From contig DIEQ01000071.1 in assembly GCA_002418705.1 (NCBI GenBank), forward strand, positions 1 through 10,578: a DNA stretch of 10,578 nt. Direction: 5' to 3'. Shown piece after piece: positions 1 to 10,578 of this stretch. The stretch comes from Mageeibacillus sp. UBA5770. Its GTDB lineage: Bacteria; Bacillota_A; Clostridia; Saccharofermentanales; Saccharofermentanaceae. Made by a program: the position numbers and the translations under genes. The notes below the pieces were generated by a model that saw only the letters and a list, made by a program, of their open reading frames with translations, did no database searches and was not told the origin of the DNA. Numbering within the stretch: position 1 is the stretch's first letter; each line of letters opens with the position of its first letter.

Positions 1-2
1 CT

Positions 3-413
3 CCGATAAACCCGGGGCGATTCACTGTTGATCTGTGGTGTACAACTTCTCAAGCCTCGAACTCGAGGACGGTTGCCATAGGGACGCTTCATACATTGCC
101 AGCCATTGAGTTTCACGATCCTATGAATTCGTTTCCGATTAAAGGGAATACCCTTTTCCTTGCGAAGAATATGAGTGATTCTTCTAGTACTATACGATGG
201 AAACCGATCAATCACGTTTCTGATCTTTTCGACGAGCTCTGGGTTTGGTTTCTTGGCTTTAGCCTTAGGCTTTGGCGCGTAATACACTTCCGATCTATTC
301 GTGCCCATTATATCGCACAGCCTTCGCAAGCTTACGTTTAAGCCTTCTTCTTTCAAGCTGCCCTGTAGGGTTAGGATTCTATCTCTTCCTGGGGTCCCTA
401 CAGCGCCTTGGCT
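3..413 (-). CDS. IS3-family transposase OrfB, N-terminal part (runs off the window)
   Basis: Shifting -1 at the A run at 413-419 opens a frame on the minus strand with no stop up to the window edge. It reads through recognisable IS3 OrfB N-terminal sequence: LCDIMGTNRSEVYY, then RFPSYSTRRITHILRKE, then NRKRIHRIVKLNGW and RPYGNRPRVRGLRS. These correspond to the HTH_21-type region preceding the rve DDE integrase core. The catalytic core itself is outside the window. In the last 40 or so bases at the left edge the expected WATD-type segment is not evident (it reads SCTPQINSESPRVYR), so the gene may be divergent or decayed there. It has no obvious independent start, so I expect it to be made as an OrfAB fusion. 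Confidence 0.75.
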
Positions 414-679
414 TTTTTTAATACGGCATTCTCCACATACAGTTCGCCGATTGTGGAACGGAGTTCTTTAAGCTCCTGTTGGTACTGAGCTTGTGCGTCT
501 GCAGCCTTTATCTTAAGGCTTTGTTCACCGCCCCTTGTGAAGGTATCTATCCAGTTTTGCACTTCACTGGGAGTAAGATCGTTCTGACGAGCAACGTCGA
601 TTACCGTTGTCGTTTGTCGCAAGATCTGCAGAACGATGTCAGCTTTCTTTCGGGCTGTCCACCTTTGCTGCTCTGCCAT
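398..679 (-). CDS. IS3-family transposase OrfA (helix-turn-helix, leucine-zipper protein)
   Basis: This 93-residue protein is the DNA-binding subunit of an IS3-family transposase. Residues about 7-50 form the HTH_Tnp_1-type helix-turn-helix (RWTARKKADIVLQILR, then DVARQNDLTPSEVQNWIDTF). The C-terminal half (QQELKELRSTIGELYVENAVLKK) has heptad-spaced leucines, the coiled coil that mediates multimerisation in this family. The start is supported by GGAGG upstream of the ATG on the minus strand (about 685-689). Its last codons run over a seven-A stretch (plus-strand T run 413-419), the expected site of a -1 ribosomal frameshift that fuses OrfA to OrfB. Length and composition are normal for the family. 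Its subgroup cannot be fixed without a database search. Confidence 0.88.
   Translation of the reverse strand: MAEQQRWTARKKADIVLQILRQTTTVIDVARQNDLTPSEVQNWIDTFTRGGEQSLKIKAADAQAQYQQELKELRSTIGELYVENAVLKKAKAL
411..419 (-). promoter_or_regulatory. Putative programmed -1 frameshift site of the IS3 element
   Basis: On the minus strand OrfA reads TTA AAA AAA GCC, giving an A-AAA-AAA heptamer in the zero frame. Slipping back by one base leaves OrfA's stop at 398-400 and enters the long OrfB frame. Such slippery A runs at the OrfA/OrfB overlap are the established way IS3-family elements make the OrfAB transposase. I did not identify a downstream stimulatory stem or pseudoknot with confidence. Confidence 0.6.
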
Positions 680-729
680 TTCCTACCTCCTCGTTCATTA
701 TACATGGTCTGAACGTGGAGGGGGACACT

Positions 730-980
730 ATATTTCACTCCTACAAGACCATCGAACAGATGTTTGGCATTACCTGCTACTTTGCTAATCCCCATCATCC
801 TTGGGAACGAAGTTCCAACGAAAACTTCAACGGCCTTCTTCGCCAATACTTCCCCAAAGGCTCTCCCTTTCTTACGTTGGTCCTGCTAAAACTCTTGCTG
901 TTAGCAAACAGCTAAATAATCCTCCTCGAAAACGTCTTGGTTTCAAGTCCCCTAAGGAGGTCGCTTATGCTATTTCTTAG
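730..980 (+). pseudogene. IS30-family transposase, C-terminal remnant with frameshift
   Basis: From about 730 the plus strand encodes HSYKTIEQMFGITCYF, then NPHHPWERSSNENFNGLLRQ and YFPKG. This is the highly characteristic IS30 segment around the third catalytic residue (the E of NEN). After about position 865 the frame changes: the same strand continues in another frame with LNNPPRKRLGFKSPKEV and a stop at 978-980, the normal C-terminus of IS30 transposases. The gene is therefore broken by an indel near 865-890 and lacks everything upstream of the IS3 junction at about 727-733. Cutting points are consistent with the IS3 element having inserted into this copy just before the HSYK segment. Not functional. 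Confidence 0.8.
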
Positions 981-1023
981 CTGTTGCACTTGTTGGTTGA
1001 ATCTACCTGATTTTTTATGCTAT

Positions 1024-3429
1024 TTATTGCTTTCGTCTTGCAGCATACTGAACATTGTACATTTCTCTTCTAATTGAGCCAGAATATTCTTTCCAATCAA
1101 AATAGGTATTACTAAGCTGACTCCAGGAATGATCTAAATAATCCAAAAAAATTCCTACTCTGGATACTCGATCTTCAATGCTTTGAACATTATGAATTTT
1201 CTCTCTAAATTCATTTAATGTAATCGGTGTATCCACGATAATGGCGTCGATATATGTAAACATGCAAGCCAACCTTAACACAGTAAAGGCGCCAGCCGGA
1301 AGGATCCGTACTCTTGTAGGCAGTGAATCCTCCTCATATATAGGCGCTGTTATAAGTCCTTTGTCTAGACAAAATTTTACCGAGACATCAATTTCTTTTT
1401 CGCTGTATCCTAGCTCTTGTAGACAACTAAATATTTCTTTTATATCTATGAAGCCTTCTTGCAATGAGGCTTTTCCTTTTTTCCTAACAAAAGATAAAAC
1501 CAATAATGTAATGAAATGCTCTTTAGGATTATCATTCGAAATATCAAATACATTAACGAGCATTGAATCTTCTGGGTTGAAGTACTCATTATCCTTATAG
1601 ATTAGAGCTCGTAGAAATTCATGTAAAGGTAATCTATACGATCCATCCTTATCAATTATCCTAATAATCTTTTGACTATCAACATGCGCACTGCCAACAA
1701 ATACTCCGATATAATCAATTACTTTGCGCAGATTGCCATTACTCATATTGTCTACAAACTCGATTATTTCAGTAGATTCTTCGAAAGCTTTTATAAGCAT
1801 CTCAATGTATTTTTCAAGAGTGTCCGAATCAACACTGACATTGCTAGTATAACTTGATAGTACCCCTAGTTCTTTCAATTTTGCTAATGCGTAACCTAAT
1901 CTTGATTTCACGACTTTATCAACTCTCGGAGGGTCGATTGTAAAGACTCTCGGTTGATAGGCGGCGAGTTTGCCAGATGACTTTGATTTAACGAATGTCT
2001 CAGGCCGTAATGCAACAAAGGCTACAACAGGCCAAGATTCTGCCATTGATTGACTAATAAGGAATACTTTTTCTTGAAGATTGTAATCTCGTTGATCAAC
2101 ATTATCAAGGAATATTACAATTTGTTTTTTTCTGCCTTTGCTAATGTGAGTTAGGCATGCTTTAAGGTGATTTTCTCGATTATTTACAAGAGTATTGATA
2201 TACTCAAGCTCTTTCTCTTTATACTCAGCTGGATTCTTTTCTTTAATATCGGAGTAAATACCTTTTGAAAACCTTTGGATATCGAGGTTGTAAACACCGT
2301 GAATGAAATTTCTTTCCTGGATATCAATATCGTACTTCTCGCGTAACTGTTTATCGATTTCATCAATAACGTACTTATCCAGATCTGCGGCGAAAGTTGG
2401 ATTAACGCCAAAATCGATATAGATAACGATAGAATTTGACAACTCTTCCTTTGCATCAACTAAAACTAAGTGCTTAATAAACATAGATTTACCGACGCCA
2501 ACATCTCCAACAAGAATTATCGGCCTACGACTTAGCCCTGCAGCTAAAAGATCTTTCTTTAAGCTCTCATTTATGCCGTTCTTGGTAGTTGCTGGCTGTG
2601 ATGTTACCTTGGCCTCTTTTTCGAAATAGCTTGTATATCTACTAACTAGTATCTCTTTTGATACAAGGGCATATTGTGATAAGGCGCCCGAGCTACAATA
2701 TGTTAGTTTTACAAATTCTTCTTCGGATTCTTGGACTCTTCCTATATCTTCAAGGAACAGCCCACCTAATATTTGCAGCTCAGCAGCAATCGGATTTCTG
2801 TTTTTGAAACCAGGGTATCCTATTATTTTTTTTGATAATTTATCAGGTGCAGGGATACTACCTTCCGAGCCCAGGAGCGAAATCACTTTGTTATCTTTTA
2901 TGCCTTCATAAGAAAGCAAATTCCAAAAAAGTAGAAAATCATTTTCGATTTCTTGAATATCCTTGAATACAATGCAATTGCCATCAAGGGGTGGGATTCC
3001 ATCCTGTCTATTACAAATAAAAATAATATATTGCCAGCCATTAGTCACTGATGCAACAGGAATGCCACGCTTATTACAGTATCTCATAACCTGATCTATT
3101 ACTTTCTGTAAAGTATCAGAAAGAGAATAAATAGTCCTTAATTTGCATTTTTTATTATTAAAACCAGCTGGAAGTTCAAAATACTGCCCTTCTTTTTTTG
3201 CCTCAACAACAACTCTCTTCCGAGGGCTACCTAATTCATAATCCGAGTATTCTTCATTGAAGTATCGCTCAGTTTCAATATAATCATGAGGCCAACCTAG
3301 ACATTCAGTCAACATACGATCTATTAATTGAAATCGAGTTGTCGCTTCATTTCTATCTGCTTTCGGAGAATCTTGAGTAATAATTGCTTTAATATTTTTC
3401 AGATTAGCTACTGCAAGTTCATAATTCAT
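1024..3429 (-). CDS. PD-(D/E)xK nuclease-like / P-loop ATPase fusion, probable anti-phage defence protein
   Basis: This 801-residue protein has no transmembrane segment or signal peptide that I can see. Residues about 25-140 resemble the N-terminal nuclease domain of type I restriction HsdR subunits and related families: D63 (YSDYELG), E76-x-K78 (VVVEAKK), then QVMRYCNKRGIP and TNGWQYIIF. Residues about 300-480 form a P-loop ATPase: Walker A GDVGVGKS (308-315), Walker B QIVIFLDNVD (436-445), and a later arginine in VAFVALRPETF. The rest (about 500-801) looks helical and is unassigned. The domain order recalls nuclease-ATPase (KAP/STAND-like) immune proteins, but I cannot name the family. The start follows GGAG on the minus strand. 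The gene is visibly richer in A+T than the cas genes and is flanked by transposase remnants, suggesting separate acquisition. Defence function is inferred from architecture and context. Confidence 0.85.
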   Translation of the reverse strand: MNYELAVANLKNIKAIITQDSPKADRNEATTRFQLIDRMLTECLGWPHDYIETERYFNEEYSDYELGSPRKRVVVEAKKEGQYFELPAGFNNKKCKLRTIYSLSDTLQKVIDQVMRYCNKRGIPVASVTNGWQYIIFICNRQDGIPPLDGNCIVFKDIQEIENDFLLFWNLLSYEGIKDNKVISLLGSEGSIPAPDKLSKKIIGYPGFKNRNPIAAELQILGGLFLEDIGRVQESEEEFVKLTYCSSGALSQYALVSKEILVSRYTSYFEKEAKVTSQPATTKNGINESLKKDLLAAGLSRRPIILVGDVGVGKSMFIKHLVLVDAKEELSNSIVIYIDFGVNPTFAADLDKYVIDEIDKQLREKYDIDIQERNFIHGVYNLDIQRFSKGIYSDIKEKNPAEYKEKELEYINTLVNNRENHLKACLTHISKGRKKQIVIFLDNVDQRDYNLQEKVFLISQSMAESWPVVAFVALRPETFVKSKSSGKLAAYQPRVFTIDPPRVDKVVKSRLGYALAKLKELGVLSSYTSNVSVDSDTLEKYIEMLIKAFEESTEIIEFVDNMSNGNLRKVIDYIGVFVGSAHVDSQKIIRIIDKDGSYRLPLHEFLRALIYKDNEYFNPEDSMLVNVFDISNDNPKEHFITLLVLSFVRKKGKASLQEGFIDIKEIFSCLQELGYSEKEIDVSVKFCLDKGLITAPIYEEDSLPTRVRILPAGAFTVLRLACMFTYIDAIIVDTPITLNEFREKIHNVQSIEDRVSRVGIFLDYLDHSWSQLSNTYFDWKEYSGSIRREMYNVQYAARRKQ

Positions 3430-3516
3430 ATTGTCTCCAATGCATTATCTTTTTTTATGCGAAAAGCGTCCAGCAAACTTTAATTCTACTGTTCTCCGCA
3501 TAATTTACTTATGGTT

Positions 3517-3544
3517 ATTCTATACAAATTTACAGATAGCACAA
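3517..3544 (-). promoter_or_regulatory. Possible promoter of the nuclease-ATPase gene
   Basis: Reading the minus strand there is TTGTGC (3544-3539), a 16-bp spacer and TAGAAT (3522-3517), roughly 90 bases upstream of the ATG at 3429. The surrounding region is AT-rich, so chance matches are likely, and other TATAAT-like hexamers occur nearby (about 3560-3570). Assigned only because the gene needs a promoter here and nothing is transcribed into it from the right. Confidence 0.3.
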
Positions 3545-3766
3545 GTAGTAAATCATATTCATATTATAAATTAATCTTAGTCATCTACTAATGATCGTAT
3601 CGAAACATTTCATAAATTTTTTTCATATTCACCTGACGTGTAATATTCTATATATATGCCACTTCATATCGGCACCTGTTCATGGAACTACGACTCCTGG
3701 GTTGGGCTGGTGTATGGTCAGCTGAGGTTAGAAATAAATTAGTAGCATAATTGGTCTGAAAAGTAG
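3545..3766. other. Gene-free AT-rich spacer between the nuclease-ATPase gene and the IS256 remnant
   Basis: I find no convincing coding frame, RNA gene or clear terminator. The left part is very AT-rich. The right part (about 3660-3766) is more balanced and may belong to decayed transposon or foreign sequence, but I could not match it to any family. The IS256-type reading frame becomes open only after the TAG at 3764-3766. Confidence 0.5.
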
Positions 3767-4597
3767 GGGAGCACTACAACTCGGGCTTCGGCAGGGCTTA
3801 TCTCAAAACTAAATAAGCAAGTCTATGAGAAAATCGAATCGTGGCGTAACCGGAAGATAGAAGGGCGTCACGCCTATGTCTACCTGGATGGAATCGTACT
3901 TAAGCGAACCTGGGCTGATGAAGTCAGGAACGTCTCGATCCTTGTTGCCTTTGGCGTCAATGAAGATGGGTTCCGGGAGATTCCTGGTGCAGCAGAAGGT
4001 GCTAAGGAAGATACGGCTGGCTGGGGTAGCTTCATTGCGAATCTCAAGGAACGAGGGTTAACGGGTGTCAGGCTCTTCATCTCCGACAAGTGCATGGGAT
4101 TGGTGGAATCGCTGGCAGAATACTATCTGGAAAGCCTCTGGCAACGTTGTACGGTGCATTTCTACCGGAATGTATTCACCAATGTACCAACTGCGAAAGT
4201 AAAAGATGTAGCAGCAATGCTCAAGGCGATCCATGCTCAAGAAGACCGACAGGCGGCCCTTGAGAAGGCGCAGGCTGTGGCAGAGAAGCTTAAAGCCATG
4301 AAATTGCATACCGCAGCCAAGACGTTGGAAGAGGGTATTCTAGAGACTTTGAGCTATACTGATTTTCCTCGCGAGCATTGGCGAAAACTAAGGACGAATA
4401 ATCCAATGGAACGGATCATGCGAGAGATCCGTCGTCGTACTCGAGTCGTCGGCAACTTCCCTGACGGCAACTCTGCACTCATGCTGGTGACCTCCCGTTT
4501 ACGGTATATTGCAGGCCGTCAGTGGGGCACTCGGTGCTACATGAATATGGACCTGTTATTCAAAGGAGAAATCGGCTACCAGATAATCGATGCATAG
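3767..4597 (+). pseudogene. IS256-family (Mutator-type) transposase, 5'-truncated
   Basis: The open frame after the TAG at 3764-3766 encodes about 276 residues with no plausible early start. Recognisable IS256 features appear in order: SKLNKQVYEKIESWRNRKIE, YVYLDGI with catalytic D (codon 3887-3889), LVAFGVNEDGFREI, LFISDKCMGL with the second D (codon 4085-4087), WQRCTVHFYRNVF, then FPREHWRKLRTNNPMERI with the catalytic E (codon 4409-4411) and EIRRRTRVVGNFPDG. The C-terminal YMNMDLL is usual for this subgroup. Missing is the N-terminal DNA-binding portion of roughly 100 or more residues. The catalytic triad is intact but the protein should be unable to bind its ends. The first in-frame ATG is at 4094, beyond the first two catalytic aspartates, so a product started there would be dead. 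Right IS end probably lies around 4620-4655 but no partner inverted repeat is present. Confidence 0.85.
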
Positions 4598-4726
4598 ACG
4601 GGAACTGGGTGAGGGCTTCCCGACAAATATGCGAAAGAATGTTGACGCTACCTGGTATTGAGCTTATCTTTATAAAAATATAGAAGAAATGAAATATATG
4701 ATGTCGTCATGACTAAATACGCTTTT

Positions 4727-4756
4727 TTTACACAAATTCCAATTGAGTGTTATACT
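4727..4756 (+). promoter_or_regulatory. Predicted promoter of the cas operon
   Basis: TTTACA (4727-4732) and TATACT (4751-4756) are each one mismatch from the sigma-70 consensus, with an 18-bp spacer, about 50 bases before the cas3 start. An overlapping alternative is TTGAGT (4743-4748) with GATAAT (4765-4770) at 16 bp. The palindrome GTCATGAC near 4706-4713, just upstream, could be an operator half, but there is no second copy to support that. The promoter lies downstream of the IS256 remnant, so the operon does not need transcription from the transposon. Confidence 0.45.
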
Positions 4757-4806
4757 GCACAATAGATAATTATATAAACTTATACGATCAAATTAAATGA
4801 TGGAAA

Positions 4807-7518
4807 ATGCAAATGAACGTCGATGAAGTGATGACTATGTTGCTTGCGCGTTCACCCAGCGGTGGGAAACTAGAGCTTCTATTAGATCATGCCTTAAGTG
4901 TAGCACAGAGGGCTTCTAATTTCATAAACGAATACTGCTTCCCTTTTGATAATCAAGAGAAGAGCAGGGCTATTGTACAGGAACTGGCATATTTGGCAGG
5001 GTTGATACACGACACTGTGGGTAAAGCCCTGAATCCGTATCAGGACTGGTTCAAGGATAACTCTGTTCGGTTTGATCCCAAAGTCCCCCATCATCATCTG
5101 GTATCCTGGCTATCCATCAGAATACTACATAGTAGGGGTATTATAGGAATTGAATATCCTGGGCATGATAAAATACTTACTGCGCTTGAAAGTGCCGTCG
5201 TTAATCATCACTTGCGCCCTGTGACAGTAATTGAGCAGACTGAAGGATATCCCCCTGAGTTTATCTCTTATGAAAATGCCTCTCAGCTTCTTTCTGCCTT
5301 GGAACCATATTGGCCAAGCTTCATATCCGGGTTTCAAATACTTCGGACGCTGTTGCTTCAAGCAAAATTCGACTTCATAAGCATCGATAATTTAAAATTT
5401 GAGACACTTCTGTCAAATTTGGAATCGGATCCTAGCTGCCTCCAGTACGAAATGGATGGTAAAGAGTTTACCATCCCAAAGCTTTTTGAGATAACATGTC
5501 AGAACCTTCCATCCCACATCACGAAACACTCTGTTCCTCCAGCACCTCTGTTGACGGAACTGCTCAGAGCAGCGTTATTGTATGCTGACAGGGAAAGTGT
5601 AAGAGATATTGAAGGAATACGAAGACCGTTCAACACCTTCACGAAGTACAGCCTATCGGATTTGGAGAAAAGGCTTCCTCCTGTAATGCGCGAACGCTGG
5701 GAACGCATTCAGAAAGACATTGTCAAAGAAACATCATCAGCACTAGAGCTTCACAATTCGGTCGTCATCAGTGCCCCTACCGGCCTGGGCAAAACCTTGT
5801 TGTCCCTTATAGCATCCTTAAGTTCAGGCAAGCGGGTATTCTATGTCTGCCCACAGAGGGATATCGCACGATCAACCTACCACAACCTCCTGTCCCTTCT
5901 ACGTGCTACTGAAAGTACTGAACCATCCAAAGTTCTTGATAACCTTAACCTGAACGATATCAGTGTACAGCTGTACTTTAATGGGACGGTACAAGATTCC
6001 GTGGGGACCGATGAACCTTTTTCTGCCAGGCTGATCGTGCTAACTATAGATGCGTTCCTATCTCCATCGCACAAGTTCAATCGTTTTGACTACTCGGAAC
6101 TGTATTCAGCAGACATGGTGTTCGACGAGTATCATCTGCTGATGTCGACTCCTGCGATGCTCTCGTTGTTTTCTCGAATGATGCTCATCCGCAACGTCTT
6201 CACCCGGTGCCGTTCGATTTTCATTTCAGCAACACCCGAACAAGTGCATTGGCTCTGGAATCGGTATGTACCCGGTGGGGACTCCATGGAATTTGCCCAG
6301 ACAAAAGTACTTCCTGATGAATTCGTACATTATCCTTGTACGTTTCCGGATAATAGATACTTTTTGAAGTACCTGACAGAGAATGAACATAGGAAGACGC
6401 CACCTGGAGGCGTACAATACTACAATACAGTCCGTGACACCCGCGCTGACAAAGATGCTGATATTCATGGTCATGGCGATGCCCTGGAATTTCACAAGAA
6501 GCTCAATTTTGAAGAGCTTCAGAAAAGGTTTGGCAAGCAAAGTAAAGATCATGAATCTCGGGCAGCCCTATGCCAGTGGGGTGCCTATGGTTTTGATGTC
6601 AGCTTCCGTTCAGTTGGAACCTCCATAGCTCCACTGTATGTTTTCATCCAAAGAGTAGGCCGGGCAATACGCTTTGCAGGCGGACAGGAGTGCAATATCA
6701 CAGTCTATGAGATTCCTGGCAGCAATCTGTCTGAACGAGCTCTCTGGGACAAGCTGTGGGGCAATTCTGTCGAACCTGAAAGAAACGCAGGCGAGAAATG
6801 TTTCAGGGAGATGATTACTGAGTATTTCCAGAAGTTTGTTGCTACACATCCAGAAGTCAGCCTGGATGAACTGTACCGTCTTTACAATGAATTCAATAGT
6901 AAAAACAGTTCTTACATGCGTCGCCGACTGGAAGAAACCTCAAGAATTGGCTTTGAACATCTTAAGGAGCTGTCTCCAAGAAGGTATTTCTCCAGCCAGA
7001 GTCCAGGCGCCCCTGAAGAACTGCCAGAACCAGAAACTGGGGAGGCTCAAGATTCAGTAATCGAAGACGTTGTTGAACAAGGAGCTTCGAGCAGAAACAA
7101 TCTTCGCAATCCAGGACGCACCTTCTATTTATTAACCAAACATCTGGATTCTACAAGAAGAACAAGGGATTGGATTCTACGATCGGTTAATGAAGACTAT
7201 CTGTGGATGCACTTCCATACCAACGGATACACATCAGATATTAGAAGAAATAATCAAGAATTCTTCTCGGAATATGCCTCGCGCATGAAGGGGATCAGAC
7301 TGGGAGAAACGGTATTGAAAAGATTCCCTCGCTTGAAACGGCTTGAAGCACACCACTTCATATATAATCTCCAGCAAGCCGCGAAACTTGCACAATCCCC
7401 TGATTCGCCCTTAATCGACCTCGTCTTTGAGTATCATGTTAAAAATTTCAAAGAAGATGTGCGTGAATACAGGTTCGAAGACCTGGGCGAAGGTCTACTA
7501 AAGAGTTGGAATTCATAA
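4807..7518 (+). CDS. cas3: CRISPR-associated HD-nuclease / superfamily 2 helicase Cas3
   Basis: Cas3 unwinds and degrades target DNA recruited by a type I Cascade complex. HD nuclease domain (about 20-265): H28, HD pair H68-D69 in AGLIHDTVGKA, H95-H97, H134-H135 in VVNHH, and the closing D261 in LLYADRES. Helicase: Walker A APTGLGKT (323-330), DEYH box (440-443), SAT (474-476), a GFDVSF segment (595-600) at the place of motif V, and QRVGRAIR (615-622). A Pro/Glu-rich linker (about 730-765) separates a C-terminal domain (770-903). At 903 residues the length is normal for Cas3. The DEYH box and compressed motif IV-V region differ from textbook I-E Cas3 and recall I-D-type helicases. The ATG at 4807 lies only 2 bases after GGA; ATG 4813 has better spacing and may be the true start. 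The frame is closed upstream by TGA at 4798-4800. First gene of the operon; 51 bp separates it from cas7. Confidence 0.93.
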   Translation: MQMNVDEVMTMLLARSPSGGKLELLLDHALSVAQRASNFINEYCFPFDNQEKSRAIVQELAYLAGLIHDTVGKALNPYQDWFKDNSVRFDPKVPHHHLVSWLSIRILHSRGIIGIEYPGHDKILTALESAVVNHHLRPVTVIEQTEGYPPEFISYENASQLLSALEPYWPSFISGFQILRTLLLQAKFDFISIDNLKFETLLSNLESDPSCLQYEMDGKEFTIPKLFEITCQNLPSHITKHSVPPAPLLTELLRAALLYADRESVRDIEGIRRPFNTFTKYSLSDLEKRLPPVMRERWERIQKDIVKETSSALELHNSVVISAPTGLGKTLLSLIASLSSGKRVFYVCPQRDIARSTYHNLLSLLRATESTEPSKVLDNLNLNDISVQLYFNGTVQDSVGTDEPFSARLIVLTIDAFLSPSHKFNRFDYSELYSADMVFDEYHLLMSTPAMLSLFSRMMLIRNVFTRCRSIFISATPEQVHWLWNRYVPGGDSMEFAQTKVLPDEFVHYPCTFPDNRYFLKYLTENEHRKTPPGGVQYYNTVRDTRADKDADIHGHGDALEFHKKLNFEELQKRFGKQSKDHESRAALCQWGAYGFDVSFRSVGTSIAPLYVFIQRVGRAIRFAGGQECNITVYEIPGSNLSERALWDKLWGNSVEPERNAGEKCFREMITEYFQKFVATHPEVSLDELYRLYNEFNSKNSSYMRRRLEETSRIGFEHLKELSPRRYFSSQSPGAPEELPEPETGEAQDSVIEDVVEQGASSRNNLRNPGRTFYLLTKHLDSTRRTRDWILRSVNEDYLWMHFHTNGYTSDIRRNNQEFFSEYASRMKGIRLGETVLKRFPRLKRLEAHHFIYNLQQAAKLAQSPDSPLIDLVFEYHVKNFKEDVREYRFEDLGEGLLKSWNS

Positions 7519-7569
7519 GAATATGATGAAATCATTAATACCAAGGGGCGTAGTCCCAAAGGAGAAACG

Positions 7570-8670
7570 ATGAAGATACACGCTAAGGGAATCGCAATTC
7601 GGATCTATGCAGAGGGTGAAGGTGTCATCAATTTTGACGGCAAGGCAAGCGAATCTGGTCAGAGGGAGTTCCTACGCAATCATGAAGGCTTTATCGGAAT
7701 CGGAGCCAACAGCAATGAAGTGATCGGAAAGCATGTCATCGTCACCACAGGTTTATTGGAGAGGGCCACAAAGTTGGGCGATTCTTTCCAAGTCCCTGTT
7801 GTGGAGATACGACAGAAGGTATCATCAGATTGCATGCGTCATGAAATATTCAAAGACTCCATGCCGCCGATAGAACTAAACTCAAGCCCCGAAGAATACC
7901 TCCCCCGCTTGCTGGCCCATACCGGAATTCTTCTGCGCGGCATGATGCGCCCGAAAAATAAGGGAATCACCCTCAAACGCAAGAGTCCATTCATGATAAC
8001 AGATCTGGTGCAGACGGGAGATGATTTTGCAGTTCCTTATATCGAAGTACATAGCAAAGAAGGTGATAAGTCATCAAAAGTAGACGAGAGCGGTACCAAG
8101 ATTGACGAAAGCACCGAAGCGAATTTCTTTAAAAAGGAGACCATAGGCCTCCATCGTCTTTCCGGAAGAGCATATCTTGATCTTTCAGAACTGCAAATGG
8201 TAATCGCCGATACAAAATTCGGTCGTCCATGCATCCTCGAAGAGTGGATCAAGGAATTCCAGAAAGCACTCAAGGATCTCTACGGAGTTGATTCGACTGA
8301 AGTGGGCTACTTTAAACTCAAACGCAGCATGCACAACATTGGCGAAAAAATGGTAAAGTTGCCTGATTCCTTTGTCACGGAGATGGTTCGAGAACTGCTC
8401 TCCAATATCCGGCAGGTATTCATCATGAGGGCTAGTTCTTACATGAAAGTATTGAAGGTGGAGATTTCACCGGCAAGCCCACTGGATCCTTTTGGAGATA
8501 CCAATGAATGGCATACTGTTACAGACAGTTTAGTGGAAGAATTGGAAGTCCAGCCCGAGTCGGCGTACATCAAGATTCCTGACGAACAGGCACAAGCCTA
8601 CAACGAAGAATACAAGAAAGCACTAGAAGCTCAAAAGGAAGCTAATGTCCGCAGTAAAAAGAAAGGATAA
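7570..8670 (+). CDS. cas7: Cas7-like crRNA-binding backbone protein of a divergent type I Cascade
   Basis: This 366-residue protein has a strong ribosome site (AAAGGAG before ATG). I assign it to the Cas7 group by pattern and context, not close similarity. It begins with an RRM-like first strand (KIHAKGIAIRIYAEG). KVSSDCMRHEIF (83-94) resembles the Cas7 helix usually read as [I/V]S-x-x-x-x-R-x-x-x. LHRLSGRAYLDLSELQMV (195-212) resembles the Cas7e segment SGVFYRYANINLAQL after the thumb insertion. The charged loop at about 160-190 (KEGDKSSKVDESGTK) may be the thumb or palm loop. The C-terminus ends in a charged helix and a Lys-rich tail. Cas7 subunits polymerise along the crRNA spacer and sever or shape the target duplex. 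Position after cas3 and before cas6e fits type I-E order. Alternative: a type IV Csf2-like Cas7. Confidence 0.7.
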   Translation: MKIHAKGIAIRIYAEGEGVINFDGKASESGQREFLRNHEGFIGIGANSNEVIGKHVIVTTGLLERATKLGDSFQVPVVEIRQKVSSDCMRHEIFKDSMPPIELNSSPEEYLPRLLAHTGILLRGMMRPKNKGITLKRKSPFMITDLVQTGDDFAVPYIEVHSKEGDKSSKVDESGTKIDESTEANFFKKETIGLHRLSGRAYLDLSELQMVIADTKFGRPCILEEWIKEFQKALKDLYGVDSTEVGYFKLKRSMHNIGEKMVKLPDSFVTEMVRELLSNIRQVFIMRASSYMKVLKVEISPASPLDPFGDTNEWHTVTDSLVEELEVQPESAYIKIPDEQAQAYNEEYKKALEAQKEANVRSKKKG

Positions 8671-8676
8671 AAAACT

Positions 8677-8701
8677 CTGAAGAGATTTCTATTCTCTTCA
8701 G
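8677..8701 (+). promoter_or_regulatory. Perfect 9-bp hairpin between cas7 and the next gene
   Basis: CTGAAGAGA (8677-8685) and TCTCTTCAG (8693-8701) are exact inverse complements with a 7-base loop. No T run follows, so it is not a classic terminator. It ends right at the ribosome site of the next gene (TAAGGA, 8702-8707, 6 bases before ATG). It could protect the upstream message end, set the relative yield of Cas7 versus the downstream protein, or be a partial terminator. The role is inferred. Confidence 0.55.
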
Positions 8702-8713
8702 TAAGGAATACAC

Positions 8714-9748
8714 ATGTACAATCTTAAGATCTGCGCCCGTGGGCTCCAGAAAAACCTTTACCCTTTCATAGTGCGGTCCACGAGGAAGATGGTAGTTTTT
8801 GGTGACAATCAAAAGTTATCTGGTCGCCATAAGCTATTCACAAAACGAGATGACAGAGAGTCTGAGTCACGTGAGTATGGGGAAGGCTTTTACCTCACAG
8901 AAAGAAATACAATAAGTGAAAGTGTCATAGCTAATATCCTCCAGGTTATGGTTGGGCTTCCTCCGGTGTCGACTCTGTCGAGTCCGGAAGCAGGCAATCC
9001 TGAGTGGGATGAAGAATGTGTATCCGCCGCAAGAAAATCAGCCATTCACTGTCTGTCTATCGTTGAGGAAAAAAGAACCTACAGGAATGTAAACCTGAGC
9101 AGCAATGCCAACAAGACTTTTACTGAAATGTGGCTTGATGGAGAATATAGATCTGTAGGGGTACCCCGCATGGGATATGATCGTACCCGTACCCTATTGG
9201 ACAGGGCTGGTTTGTGGAACGAATTTTATGAGTTAGCATGCAAGTACGACCCTGCCGCCATGGACAACCACAATACACATAAGGTTCTGGAGACGCTCAA
9301 TGCGTTTAAGCGAAACCCGGATGTCCAGCAGTTCATTAAGCATTGTACTATTAAAGGCGGAACTGCTTTTCATGACATCATATCCGGCACTGATTCAATG
9401 CATTCCAGCGGTACACTAAACTGCGAACAGAACAAGGGTATCGGACAGACTGGCCCCAACTCGGATCCGGCACTATCTATCGCAGACAGGGTAGTCCGAG
9501 GTGTCAGTAACATCCTCAAGCTTGATCTGGATATCTACATCCAGGTCAGTGATGAAATGCTCATGATGATCGAAAAACATAGTCCTGGTGTCACAAGCTG
9601 TCTTGATGGTGGCTTAGCGTGGGCAGAACTATGTGGGGAAAAACCAGCAACTGCTACCATACGACCATGGCCGTACTTTAGGGATGATGGTCACCACATG
9701 CATAAAACCATGCCGTTGTCGGAAATTATCCCTGAAGTTGGTTCTTAA
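8714..9748 (+). CDS. Uncharacterised CRISPR operon protein, candidate Cas5/Cas7-like (or large-subunit substitute)
   Basis: I do not recognise this 344-residue protein. It is surely a gene: TAAGGA ribosome site 6 bases before ATG, long frame, and co-oriented between cas7 and cas6e with 28 bp to cas6e. It occupies the place of cas5 in type I-E order. Visible features: a first strand NLKICARGL (3-11) that resembles KIHAKGI of the neighbouring Cas7-like protein; TISESVIANILQVMVGLP (66-83), which could match either the Cas5 segment before the conserved Gly or the Cas7 first helix; a helical middle (about 155-210, FYELACKYDP, VLETLNAFKR); a Gly/Ser-rich loop (about 214-250); and a C-terminus RPWPYFRDDGHHMH (317-330) with three close histidines that could bind metal or nucleic acid. 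No membrane segment or known catalytic motif. It may cap the crRNA and recognise the PAM, jobs otherwise unassigned here. Confidence 0.8.
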   Translation: MYNLKICARGLQKNLYPFIVRSTRKMVVFGDNQKLSGRHKLFTKRDDRESESREYGEGFYLTERNTISESVIANILQVMVGLPPVSTLSSPEAGNPEWDEECVSAARKSAIHCLSIVEEKRTYRNVNLSSNANKTFTEMWLDGEYRSVGVPRMGYDRTRTLLDRAGLWNEFYELACKYDPAAMDNHNTHKVLETLNAFKRNPDVQQFIKHCTIKGGTAFHDIISGTDSMHSSGTLNCEQNKGIGQTGPNSDPALSIADRVVRGVSNILKLDLDIYIQVSDEMLMMIEKHSPGVTSCLDGGLAWAELCGEKPATATIRPWPYFRDDGHHMHKTMPLSEIIPEVGS

Positions 9749-9776
9749 TTAAACCTTGAATGAGATGAGGTGAATC

Positions 9777-10286
9777 GTGTACCTATCAAGTATTTTTCTT
9801 GGCCCTATGGCAGCCGACATATATGCAGTCCATCAATTCTTGTCGAACATCGACAGCAAAGCCCTCTGGCAAAGACGCGGCCACAAAGTACTCCTTTTGT
9901 CAGAGAGAAAACTGGAAAATTCCCGAGAGGTTGGAGTGGATTTCCCGAAGAATACCCAACTTCCATTTACGCTGCGCATCCGCCCTGTGTACCGGAGTCA
10001 CGATCCTGAGAGCGGGAAAGTCATTGAGAAGCGGCTGCCCGCAGACCAGATGATGCAGAACCTTCGTAATAAAGCATCTGGTGCCGGCTTTACTTTCCTT
10101 GATGCCCTGGCATCTTCAGAAGAGCCATATGCGTTGAAAAAACCGGGAAGCACCATTCAACTTTATTCAATGTATATCGTCGGAACTTTAAGGGTACTGA
10201 ACACGCCTCTATTCCGGTCAGTTCTCTGCCATGGCATGGGACGCAGCAAAAGATTCGGATTTGGCATGATCAACGTCTGGGAATGA
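9777..10286 (+). CDS. cas6e: Cas6e-like crRNA-processing endoribonuclease
   Basis: The protein cuts pre-crRNA at the repeat hairpin and stays bound to the 3' hairpin in type I-E and IV-A2 complexes. Evidence: the N-terminus MYLSSIFLGPMAADIYAVHQ lines up closely with E. coli Cas6e (MYLSKV...DLYQLHQ), including the catalytic histidine (H19 here, H20 there). The C-terminal GMGRSKRFGFGMINV (153-167) matches the Gly-rich loop GIGPAKSMGCGLLSL. At 169 residues it is about 30 shorter than E. coli Cas6e, mostly in the middle, although RIRPVYR (67-73) and a QNLRNKA segment are retained. Start is GTG at 9777, chosen because it begins exactly at the family N-terminus and follows GAGGTG (9767-9772). It is the last gene of the operon, about 195 bp before the first repeat, and its cognate hairpin is present. 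Confidence 0.88.
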   Translation: MYLSSIFLGPMAADIYAVHQFLSNIDSKALWQRRGHKVLLLSERKLENSREVGVDFPKNTQLPFTLRIRPVYRSHDPESGKVIEKRLPADQMMQNLRNKASGAGFTFLDALASSEEPYALKKPGSTIQLYSMYIVGTLRVLNTPLFRSVLCHGMGRSKRFGFGMINVWE

Positions 10287-10480
10287 TTATTCGGTTTTAT
10301 GCCTTAAATGCAATCGCGAACCTGCAACACACATGAAAATCTTAGATGTTCGCATTTTCCTTAGCATAAAGAATTACATCCTCAAGGGTGTGATGAGTGA
10401 CCTCTTCAAGGATCTGAATTTTCACTTTCGCGTACTGGCATATGTATTTCATGTGTCTGTATGGATAAAAATATCGTGCC
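10287..10480 (+). promoter_or_regulatory. CRISPR leader region
   Basis: The 194 bp between cas6e and the first repeat contain no gene and should be the leader that drives pre-crRNA transcription towards the right. Just before the first repeat it is AT-rich (TATGGATAAAAATATC, about 10461-10476), where a -10 element could sit; no convincing -35 is visible. A weak imperfect inverted repeat pairs GCGAAC (about 10315-10320) with GTTCGC (about 10349-10354). No intrinsic terminator for the cas operon is evident, so cas transcription may read into the array. Confidence 0.6.
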
Positions 10481-10578
10481 GTGTTGTTCCCCGCGCAGGC
10501 GGGGAATGGAAGATGGATTCTTCGGGGAGCTATGGTTATGCGGTAGAGTGTTGTTCCCCGCGCAGGCGGGGAATGGAA
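10481..10578 (+). CRISPR. CRISPR array: two identical repeats and one spacer, continuing past the window
   Basis: The same 31 bases occur at 10481-10511 and 10548-10578, starting GTGTTG and ending AATGGAA, with a different 36-base spacer (10512-10547). The window stops at the last visible base of repeat 2, so the repeat could be longer. The repeat holds a strong hairpin: TTCCCCGC, loop GCAG, GCGGGGAA (10487-10494 / 10499-10506). This is the core of type I-E and some IV-A repeats, recognised by Cas6e. By homology with E. coli the cut falls after GCGGGG, leaving a 5' handle starting AATGGAA. The repeat-to-repeat period is 67 bp versus 61 typical of type I-E. Orientation, with the leader on the left and cas genes upstream, predicts transcription to the right. 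Confidence 0.9.

Follow-up and report, generated by a model that had tools for sequence, protein, structure and literature searches.

A stretch of 10,578 nucleotides from Mageeibacillus sp. UBA5770 (contig DIEQ01000071.1, positions 1 to 10,578 of the forward strand; this whole stretch is referred to as the window) carries cas3, cas7, a gene for a protein here called X, and cas6e, followed by the start of an array of clustered regularly interspaced short palindromic repeats (CRISPR), all in the same direction (Table 1). The four open frames are without internal stops and are separated by gaps of 51 base pairs between cas3 and cas7, 43 between cas7 and X, and 28 between X and cas6e. A preliminary description of the locus, made from the sequence alone, had listed this same set of genes, and the open frames and profile searches bear it out. 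Cas3, the hallmark helicase-nuclease of type I systems, was present by profile matches and alignment. As that description had also stated, the window yielded no recognisable Cas8, Cas11, Cas5, Cas1 or Cas2, here in a PADLOC scan that took in 32 of its 33 listed frames with at least 60 residues (the omitted frame, 96–341, sits inside a scanned one), the absence of cas1, cas2 and cas8 applying to the window only. The operon is probably a type I interference system without Cas8 and Cas11 that derives from, or is sister to, subtype I-F2 (I-Fv), and in which Cas6e would mature the CRISPR RNA (crRNA) from an I-E-like repeat.

Table 1. Genes of the operon and elements of the adjoining array in the window.
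Feature	Positions	Strand	Size	Description
cas3	4807..7518	+	903 residues	HD nuclease-helicase, I-F2 (Cas3fv)-like
cas7	7570..8670	+	366 residues	Cas7fv-family backbone subunit
X	8714..9748	+	344 residues	unassigned to any family; putative, very divergent Cas5fv-like subunit
cas6e	9777..10286	+	169 residues	GTG start; crRNA-processing endoribonuclease
Presumed leader, cas6e to first repeat	10287..10480	+	194 base pairs	presumed from position only
CRISPR repeat 1	10481..10511	+	31 nucleotides	I-E-like hairpin
Spacer 1	10512..10547	+	36 nucleotides	
CRISPR repeat 2	10548..10578	+	31 nucleotides	last base is the end of the window

The placement of the operon is carried by Cas7 and Cas3. The sole NCBIfam match of Cas7 was Cas7fv (2.4e-22), at 79.7 bits against a model cut-off of 200, and the protein is therefore best described as a divergent branch of that family. 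PADLOC returned Cas7fv (2.3e-17) and Cas7f (1e-12), with no match to Cas7e, and the top two PDB matches were 5o6u, in which the chain is named Cas7fv (8.9e-7), and 9g44 (9.8e-7), an entry that holds a chain with the same Cas5fv sequence. As a single sequence, Cas7 aligned to a profile of 82 I-F2 Cas7 proteins with a probability of 98.2%; it is 26–28% identical to three plasmid-borne I-F2 Cas7 proteins and, at 366 residues, longer. On these profile and structure-database matches the window Cas7 is a member of the Cas7fv family, with clear homology.

Cas3 likewise had Cas3fv as its top PADLOC profile (1.4e-16), with weaker matches to the generic Cas3 (4.2e-15), Cas3a1 (3e-14), Cas3c (3.1e-14) and Cas3e (7.9e-09) profiles, a match to NCBIfam TIGR01587 under the model cut-off (1.6e-14), and the helicase chain of 9g44 as its best PDB match (1.6e-10). 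Profile–profile comparison with 73 I-F2 Cas3 proteins gave a probability of 99.2%, and in an alignment with 12 Cas3fv proteins the window Cas3 was collinear through the C-terminus, with HD and helicase motifs that were intact by eye in the five of thirteen rows viewed. By these rankings it is nearest to Cas3fv. A tblastn search of plasmids with Cas3 (E <= 1e-5) returned four records, identical to the four with cas7fv. Six of the 12 Cas3fv proteins carry an N-terminal extension of 96–110 residues, which in cas1-linked I-F2 loci is presumably a Cas2-like domain. The window Cas3 is without this extension, as are the proteins of the other six loci (L016, L020, L023, L039, L052 and L080), and cas1 was undetected in all six. 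Neither cas1 nor the extended Cas3 is thus universal in I-F2, and their absence from the window has counterparts in these loci and, for cas1, in L085.

With Cas7 in the Cas7fv family and Cas3 nearest to Cas3fv, the operon falls beside I-F2, and its I-E element is confined to Cas6e and the repeat. The same two matches, together with the I-F2 gene order, make the lack of Cas8 and Cas11 the known I-F2 condition.

The assignment of Cas6e is supported by Pfam PF08798 (3.8e-13) and the PADLOC Cas6e profile (4.1e-17), with NCBIfam TIGR01907 slightly under its cut-off (42 against 45.2 bits). Its N-terminal D-I-Y-A-V-H-Q aligned to D-L-Y-Q-L-H-Q of Escherichia coli CasE, with a histidine in common that we take to be catalytic. 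There was no tblastn match for Cas6e in plasmids or phages. Type IV systems include Cas6e-like proteins, and weak PADLOC matches to type IV Cas6 were seen; a type IV assignment was considered and dropped, given the Cas7fv identity of Cas7 and the presence of a complete Cas3.

Two identical 31-nucleotide repeats recur with a period of 67. As RNA, the repeat forms a hairpin of -17.7 kcal/mol (z -4.6), a stability reached by none of 200 shuffled sequences. Compared with the E. coli I-E repeat it scored 28.5, whereas the repeats of 11 I-F2 loci, selected by their common I-F motif, gave 13.5–20. Neither the phage nor the plasmid collection contained a match to spacer 1. Rfam gave just two matches, both to CRISPR-DR28 on the minus strand and below the gathering threshold, and a search of plasmids with the repeat gave 100 records at E up to 10, the best among the matches listed being 0.2, which were not used. 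The I-E-like repeat, the presence of Cas6e and the absence of Cas6f together indicate that the locus joins an I-F2-like effector to I-E-like crRNA processing.

For comparison, a set of 83 I-F2 loci was assembled from three plasmid loci and the best 80 of 107 genome-contig relatives, the latter found by a profile scan with a six-member Cas7 alignment (A3) and with genes called at E <= 1e-3. These best 80 were canonical I-F2 loci only. Cas5fv was present in all 83 loci, and Cas6f in 79 (77 by phmmer, and L019 and L049 as Csy4 by Pfam); in the remaining four the contig stops at most 140 bases from cas5fv. All five genes were found in 61 of the 83, array-like repeats in 62, and a dominant period of 60 in 61. 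No frame of any of these loci matched X or the window Cas6e. Set against I-F2 of the Shewanella putrefaciens type (cas1-cas3-cas7fv-cas5fv-cas6f), the window shares the Cas7fv family, a Cas3fv-like Cas3, the order cas3, cas7, cas5 slot and cas6, similar gene sizes, and the lack of a recognised large or small subunit. It differs in having Cas6e rather than Cas6f, an I-E-like repeat with the longer period rather than an I-F repeat, and no recognisable Cas5.

Protein X, which the preliminary description had already called unrecognised, indeed could not be placed in a family by Pfam, NCBIfam, PADLOC or PHROGs, and the PDB yielded a single match at chance level (E = 2). It occupies the cas5fv slot and, at 344 residues, is close to the 337 of Cas5fv. 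A profile made from the last 51 columns of 81 Cas5fv proteins matched X at approximately residues 265–305 with a score of 32.7, a value reached by none of 1458 control C-termini (top control 32.0), which were six-frame open frames from the same loci and the window and not all real genes. An earlier run of this test likewise gave 0 of 823 controls and 0 of 400 shuffles as good as X. Mainly on slot and length, X is quite probably a very divergent Cas5fv.

A large protein search returned, besides X's own cluster, a single relative (P0002, 78% identical); a two-sequence profile found no further relatives at E <= 10, and there was no tblastn match for X in plasmids. For Cas7 the same search returned P0003 (81% identical) and P0004 (28%). 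Since it missed known I-F2 Cas7 proteins, it is blind at approximately 25% identity, and the one relative of X is to be read as one close relative. P0002 and P0003 have nearly the same lengths as X and the window Cas7, and the largest contig recorded for each is of 29,193 bases; the two genes thus very probably lie on the same contig, and the Cas7–X pair has probably been kept in a second lineage. The third Cas7, P0004, is on a different contig (up to 41,894 bases) and is no closer to the window Cas7 than the three plasmid I-F2 proteins are. Both P0003 and P0004 bear a precomputed PF28157 label, absent from the results of the Pfam scan made here. A Cas7 tree of 45 sequences, for which every second I-F2 match was taken, put the window, P0003 and P0004 on one side of a branch with support of 100/100; the inner branches of this tree are saturated (length ~10), and the placement of P0004 in it was flagged as unsure. 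There was no relative of the window Cas7 in genome contigs searched with Cas7 alignment A2, nor any tblastn match for Cas7 in phages. Viral contigs gave no match for alignments A1 and A2, the repeat, Cas3 or Cas6e, and one canonical I-F2 locus for alignment A3.

A large-subunit-free effector has a precedent, as three-protein Cascade complexes are described for I-F2 in PMC6546366 and PMC11442125. According to the former, a six-helix domain of Cas5fv compensates for the absent large subunit, and the protospacer-adjacent motif (PAM) is read from the major groove. In the proposed mechanism, Cas6e would cut the array transcript at the base of the CCCCGC/GCGGGG hairpin and remain bound to the 3' hairpin, Cas7fv-like subunits would coat the spacer, and X, like Cas5fv, would bind or cap the 5' handle and take over PAM reading from the missing large subunit. 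The assembled complex may then open target DNA, which the Cas3fv-like HD helicase-nuclease would degrade.

Several results weigh against the I-F2 reading and in particular against X as a Cas5fv. The C-terminal region was picked only after weak matches had been seen there, and the score of P0002 in that region (27.1) was reached by 29 of the 1458 controls. HMMER gave X 0.6 bits for the same region, ranking it fifth among non-Cas5fv frames, with P0002 at -2.4 bits, and an N-terminal Cas5fv profile gave X no support. In tests of the N-terminus and of the whole length, 65 of 823 and 42 of 150 controls (the latter drawn from 360) were as good as X; global alignment of X with Cas5fv scored 24.4 against 13.3 +/- 12.5 for shuffles, a difference of approximately one standard deviation; hhalign, run on single sequences and on the profile of 81 Cas5fv proteins, gave a probability of 0.2%; and PADLOC made no Cas5fv call on X. 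AlphaFold produced no confident fold from two sequences, with a predicted local distance difference test score (pLDDT) of 33.9, nor from 41 rows of which 39 were Cas5fv (pLDDT 40.1). Outside X, Cas3fv is only narrowly ahead of the next Cas3 profiles (1.4e-16, followed by 4.2e-15 and 3e-14), and the array is known from two repeats alone, the second at the end of the window. The HMMER rank, profile–profile probability and AlphaFold results, along with the lack of a family or structure match, would favour X being a protein unrelated to Cas5 that has taken on the binding of the handle and the recognition of the PAM, giving an effector different in kind from that of I-F2. This alternative agrees with the I-F2 placement except on the nature of X, and we regard it as unlikely in view of the slot, the near-equal length and the C-terminal match, as well as a helix-rich middle (approximately residues 100 to 223) in both low-confidence models, which would suit the six-helix domain given for Cas5fv in PMC6546366.

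The preliminary description had instead seen a reduction on a Cas6e/I-E background, i.e. an I-E operon that independently lost cas8e and cas11 while cas5e diverged past recognition. Cas6e, the hairpin of the I-E-like repeat and the slot order of cas3, cas7, X and cas6e are consistent with such a history, but the window has no recognised Cas8e, Cas11, Cas7e or Cas5e, Cas7 is in the Cas7fv family, and the Cas3e profile is much weaker than Cas3fv for Cas3 (7.9e-09 against 1.4e-16); the assignment of Cas7, with that of Cas3, largely rules this history out, and we consider it extremely improbable. The cas3–cas7 gap of 51 base pairs was as that description gave it, with AAAGGAG preceding cas7, and the description's view that the gap is no deletion scar stands; since the operon belongs beside I-F2, however, this is an ordinary I-F2 junction and not the site of a lost cas8e–cas11 pair. 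Its appeal to I-Fv as a precedent was similarly apt as regards a comparable Cascade without recognisable large or small subunit, but the reduction is not independent of I-F2. A decaying, non-functional relic near mobile elements might account for the transposase frames upstream (a partial IS256/Mutator-type one and those of IS3 type), the lack of adaptation genes in the window and the mere two repeats visible, yet the four frames are intact with short gaps, the motifs of Cas3 and Cas6e are kept as judged by eye, and relatives of Cas7 and X are conserved at 81% and 78% identity over nearly equal length, making decay very unlikely. It is conceivable, though we think it doubtful, that the window Cas7, with P0003 and perhaps P0004, marks a separate, undescribed type I lineage, with X as its signature and an I-E-derived module of Cas6e and repeat. 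In such a lineage X might stand in for Cas5 and Cas8 alike with its own way of reading the PAM, and the resulting mosaic Cascade would be one left unnamed in the consulted sections of the 2025 classification (PMC12669027).

Derivation from, or a sister relationship to, I-F2 remains the reading we favour, and on that reading the locus is apparently an undescribed and very rare variant; the undescribed subtype suggested in the preliminary description is thus plausible as to novelty, but is read here as an I-F2-derived or sister variant. Neither Cas6e nor Cas5fv occurs in the main text of the 2025 classification, which mentions an I-F variant placed between I-F1 and I-F2 as an intermediate (PMC12669027). 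That variant and the window are alike as rare I-F derivatives, a likeness drawn from the mention in that text. No I-F2 or I-Fv system with Cas6e was found in the literature by titles and the beginnings of abstracts; this search covered neither bioRxiv preprints nor the majority of subscription papers, and the term undescribed is accordingly provisional. The Vibrio III-B/I-F hybrid loci (PMC6360697) provide a precedent, with the Cas6 and repeat of one subtype next to an effector from another: there a III-B effector is followed by cas6f and an I-F array, whereas the window has Cas6e behind an I-F2-like effector.

Next to the operon, on its upstream side, a frame at 4094–4597 on the forward strand encodes the C-terminal portion of an IS256/Mutator-type transposase, and IS3-type frames lie at 3–679 on the reverse strand (orfA-like at 401–679; orfB-like at 3–356, running past the window edge). 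A short forward frame at 607–980 resembles the end of an IS30-type transposase by eye. Between these, at 1024–3429 on the reverse strand, is a gene for a P-loop ATPase of 801 residues, with sub-threshold AAA and NACHT matches and a weak HSDR_N_2 match at 107–139. It had no PADLOC match, and its guanine and cytosine content is 36%, against 45–49% in the cas genes. Relatives were found in 30 plasmid records, the top-ranked being 39.5% identical, and the ten listed were all annotated as hypothetical. The ATPase gene is possibly another defence gene.

The comparison set and the viral collection revealed additional I-F2 arrangements. A PIN-domain gene lies between cas3 and cas7fv in L017 (3231–3653), L018 (1598–2029) and L040 (8208–8627). 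L085 (7318–12501) carries cas3, cas7fv, cas5fv and cas6f with an I-F-like array on a 363-kilobase contig of the viral collection, cas1 being undetected. L012 (4770–9925) and L029 have cas7fv, cas5fv and cas6f, with cas1 and cas3 undetected in the stretch fetched; directly upstream in L012 are two integrase-family genes, a family-less gene of 207 residues and a GreA/GreB-like gene, and L029 has similar-sized frames at that position. These two loci possibly represent a Cas3-free I-F2 type on a mobile element.

If the I-F2-derived or sister reading of the Mageeibacillus locus is correct, the minimal Cascade that lacks a large subunit would not be bound to Cas6f and an I-F repeat, and the crRNA-processing part would be exchangeable across subtypes. 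X would then be an independent and highly divergent candidate PAM reader for the question of how Cas5 replaces Cas8, within a compact three-protein effector that would work with a wider repeat spacing.

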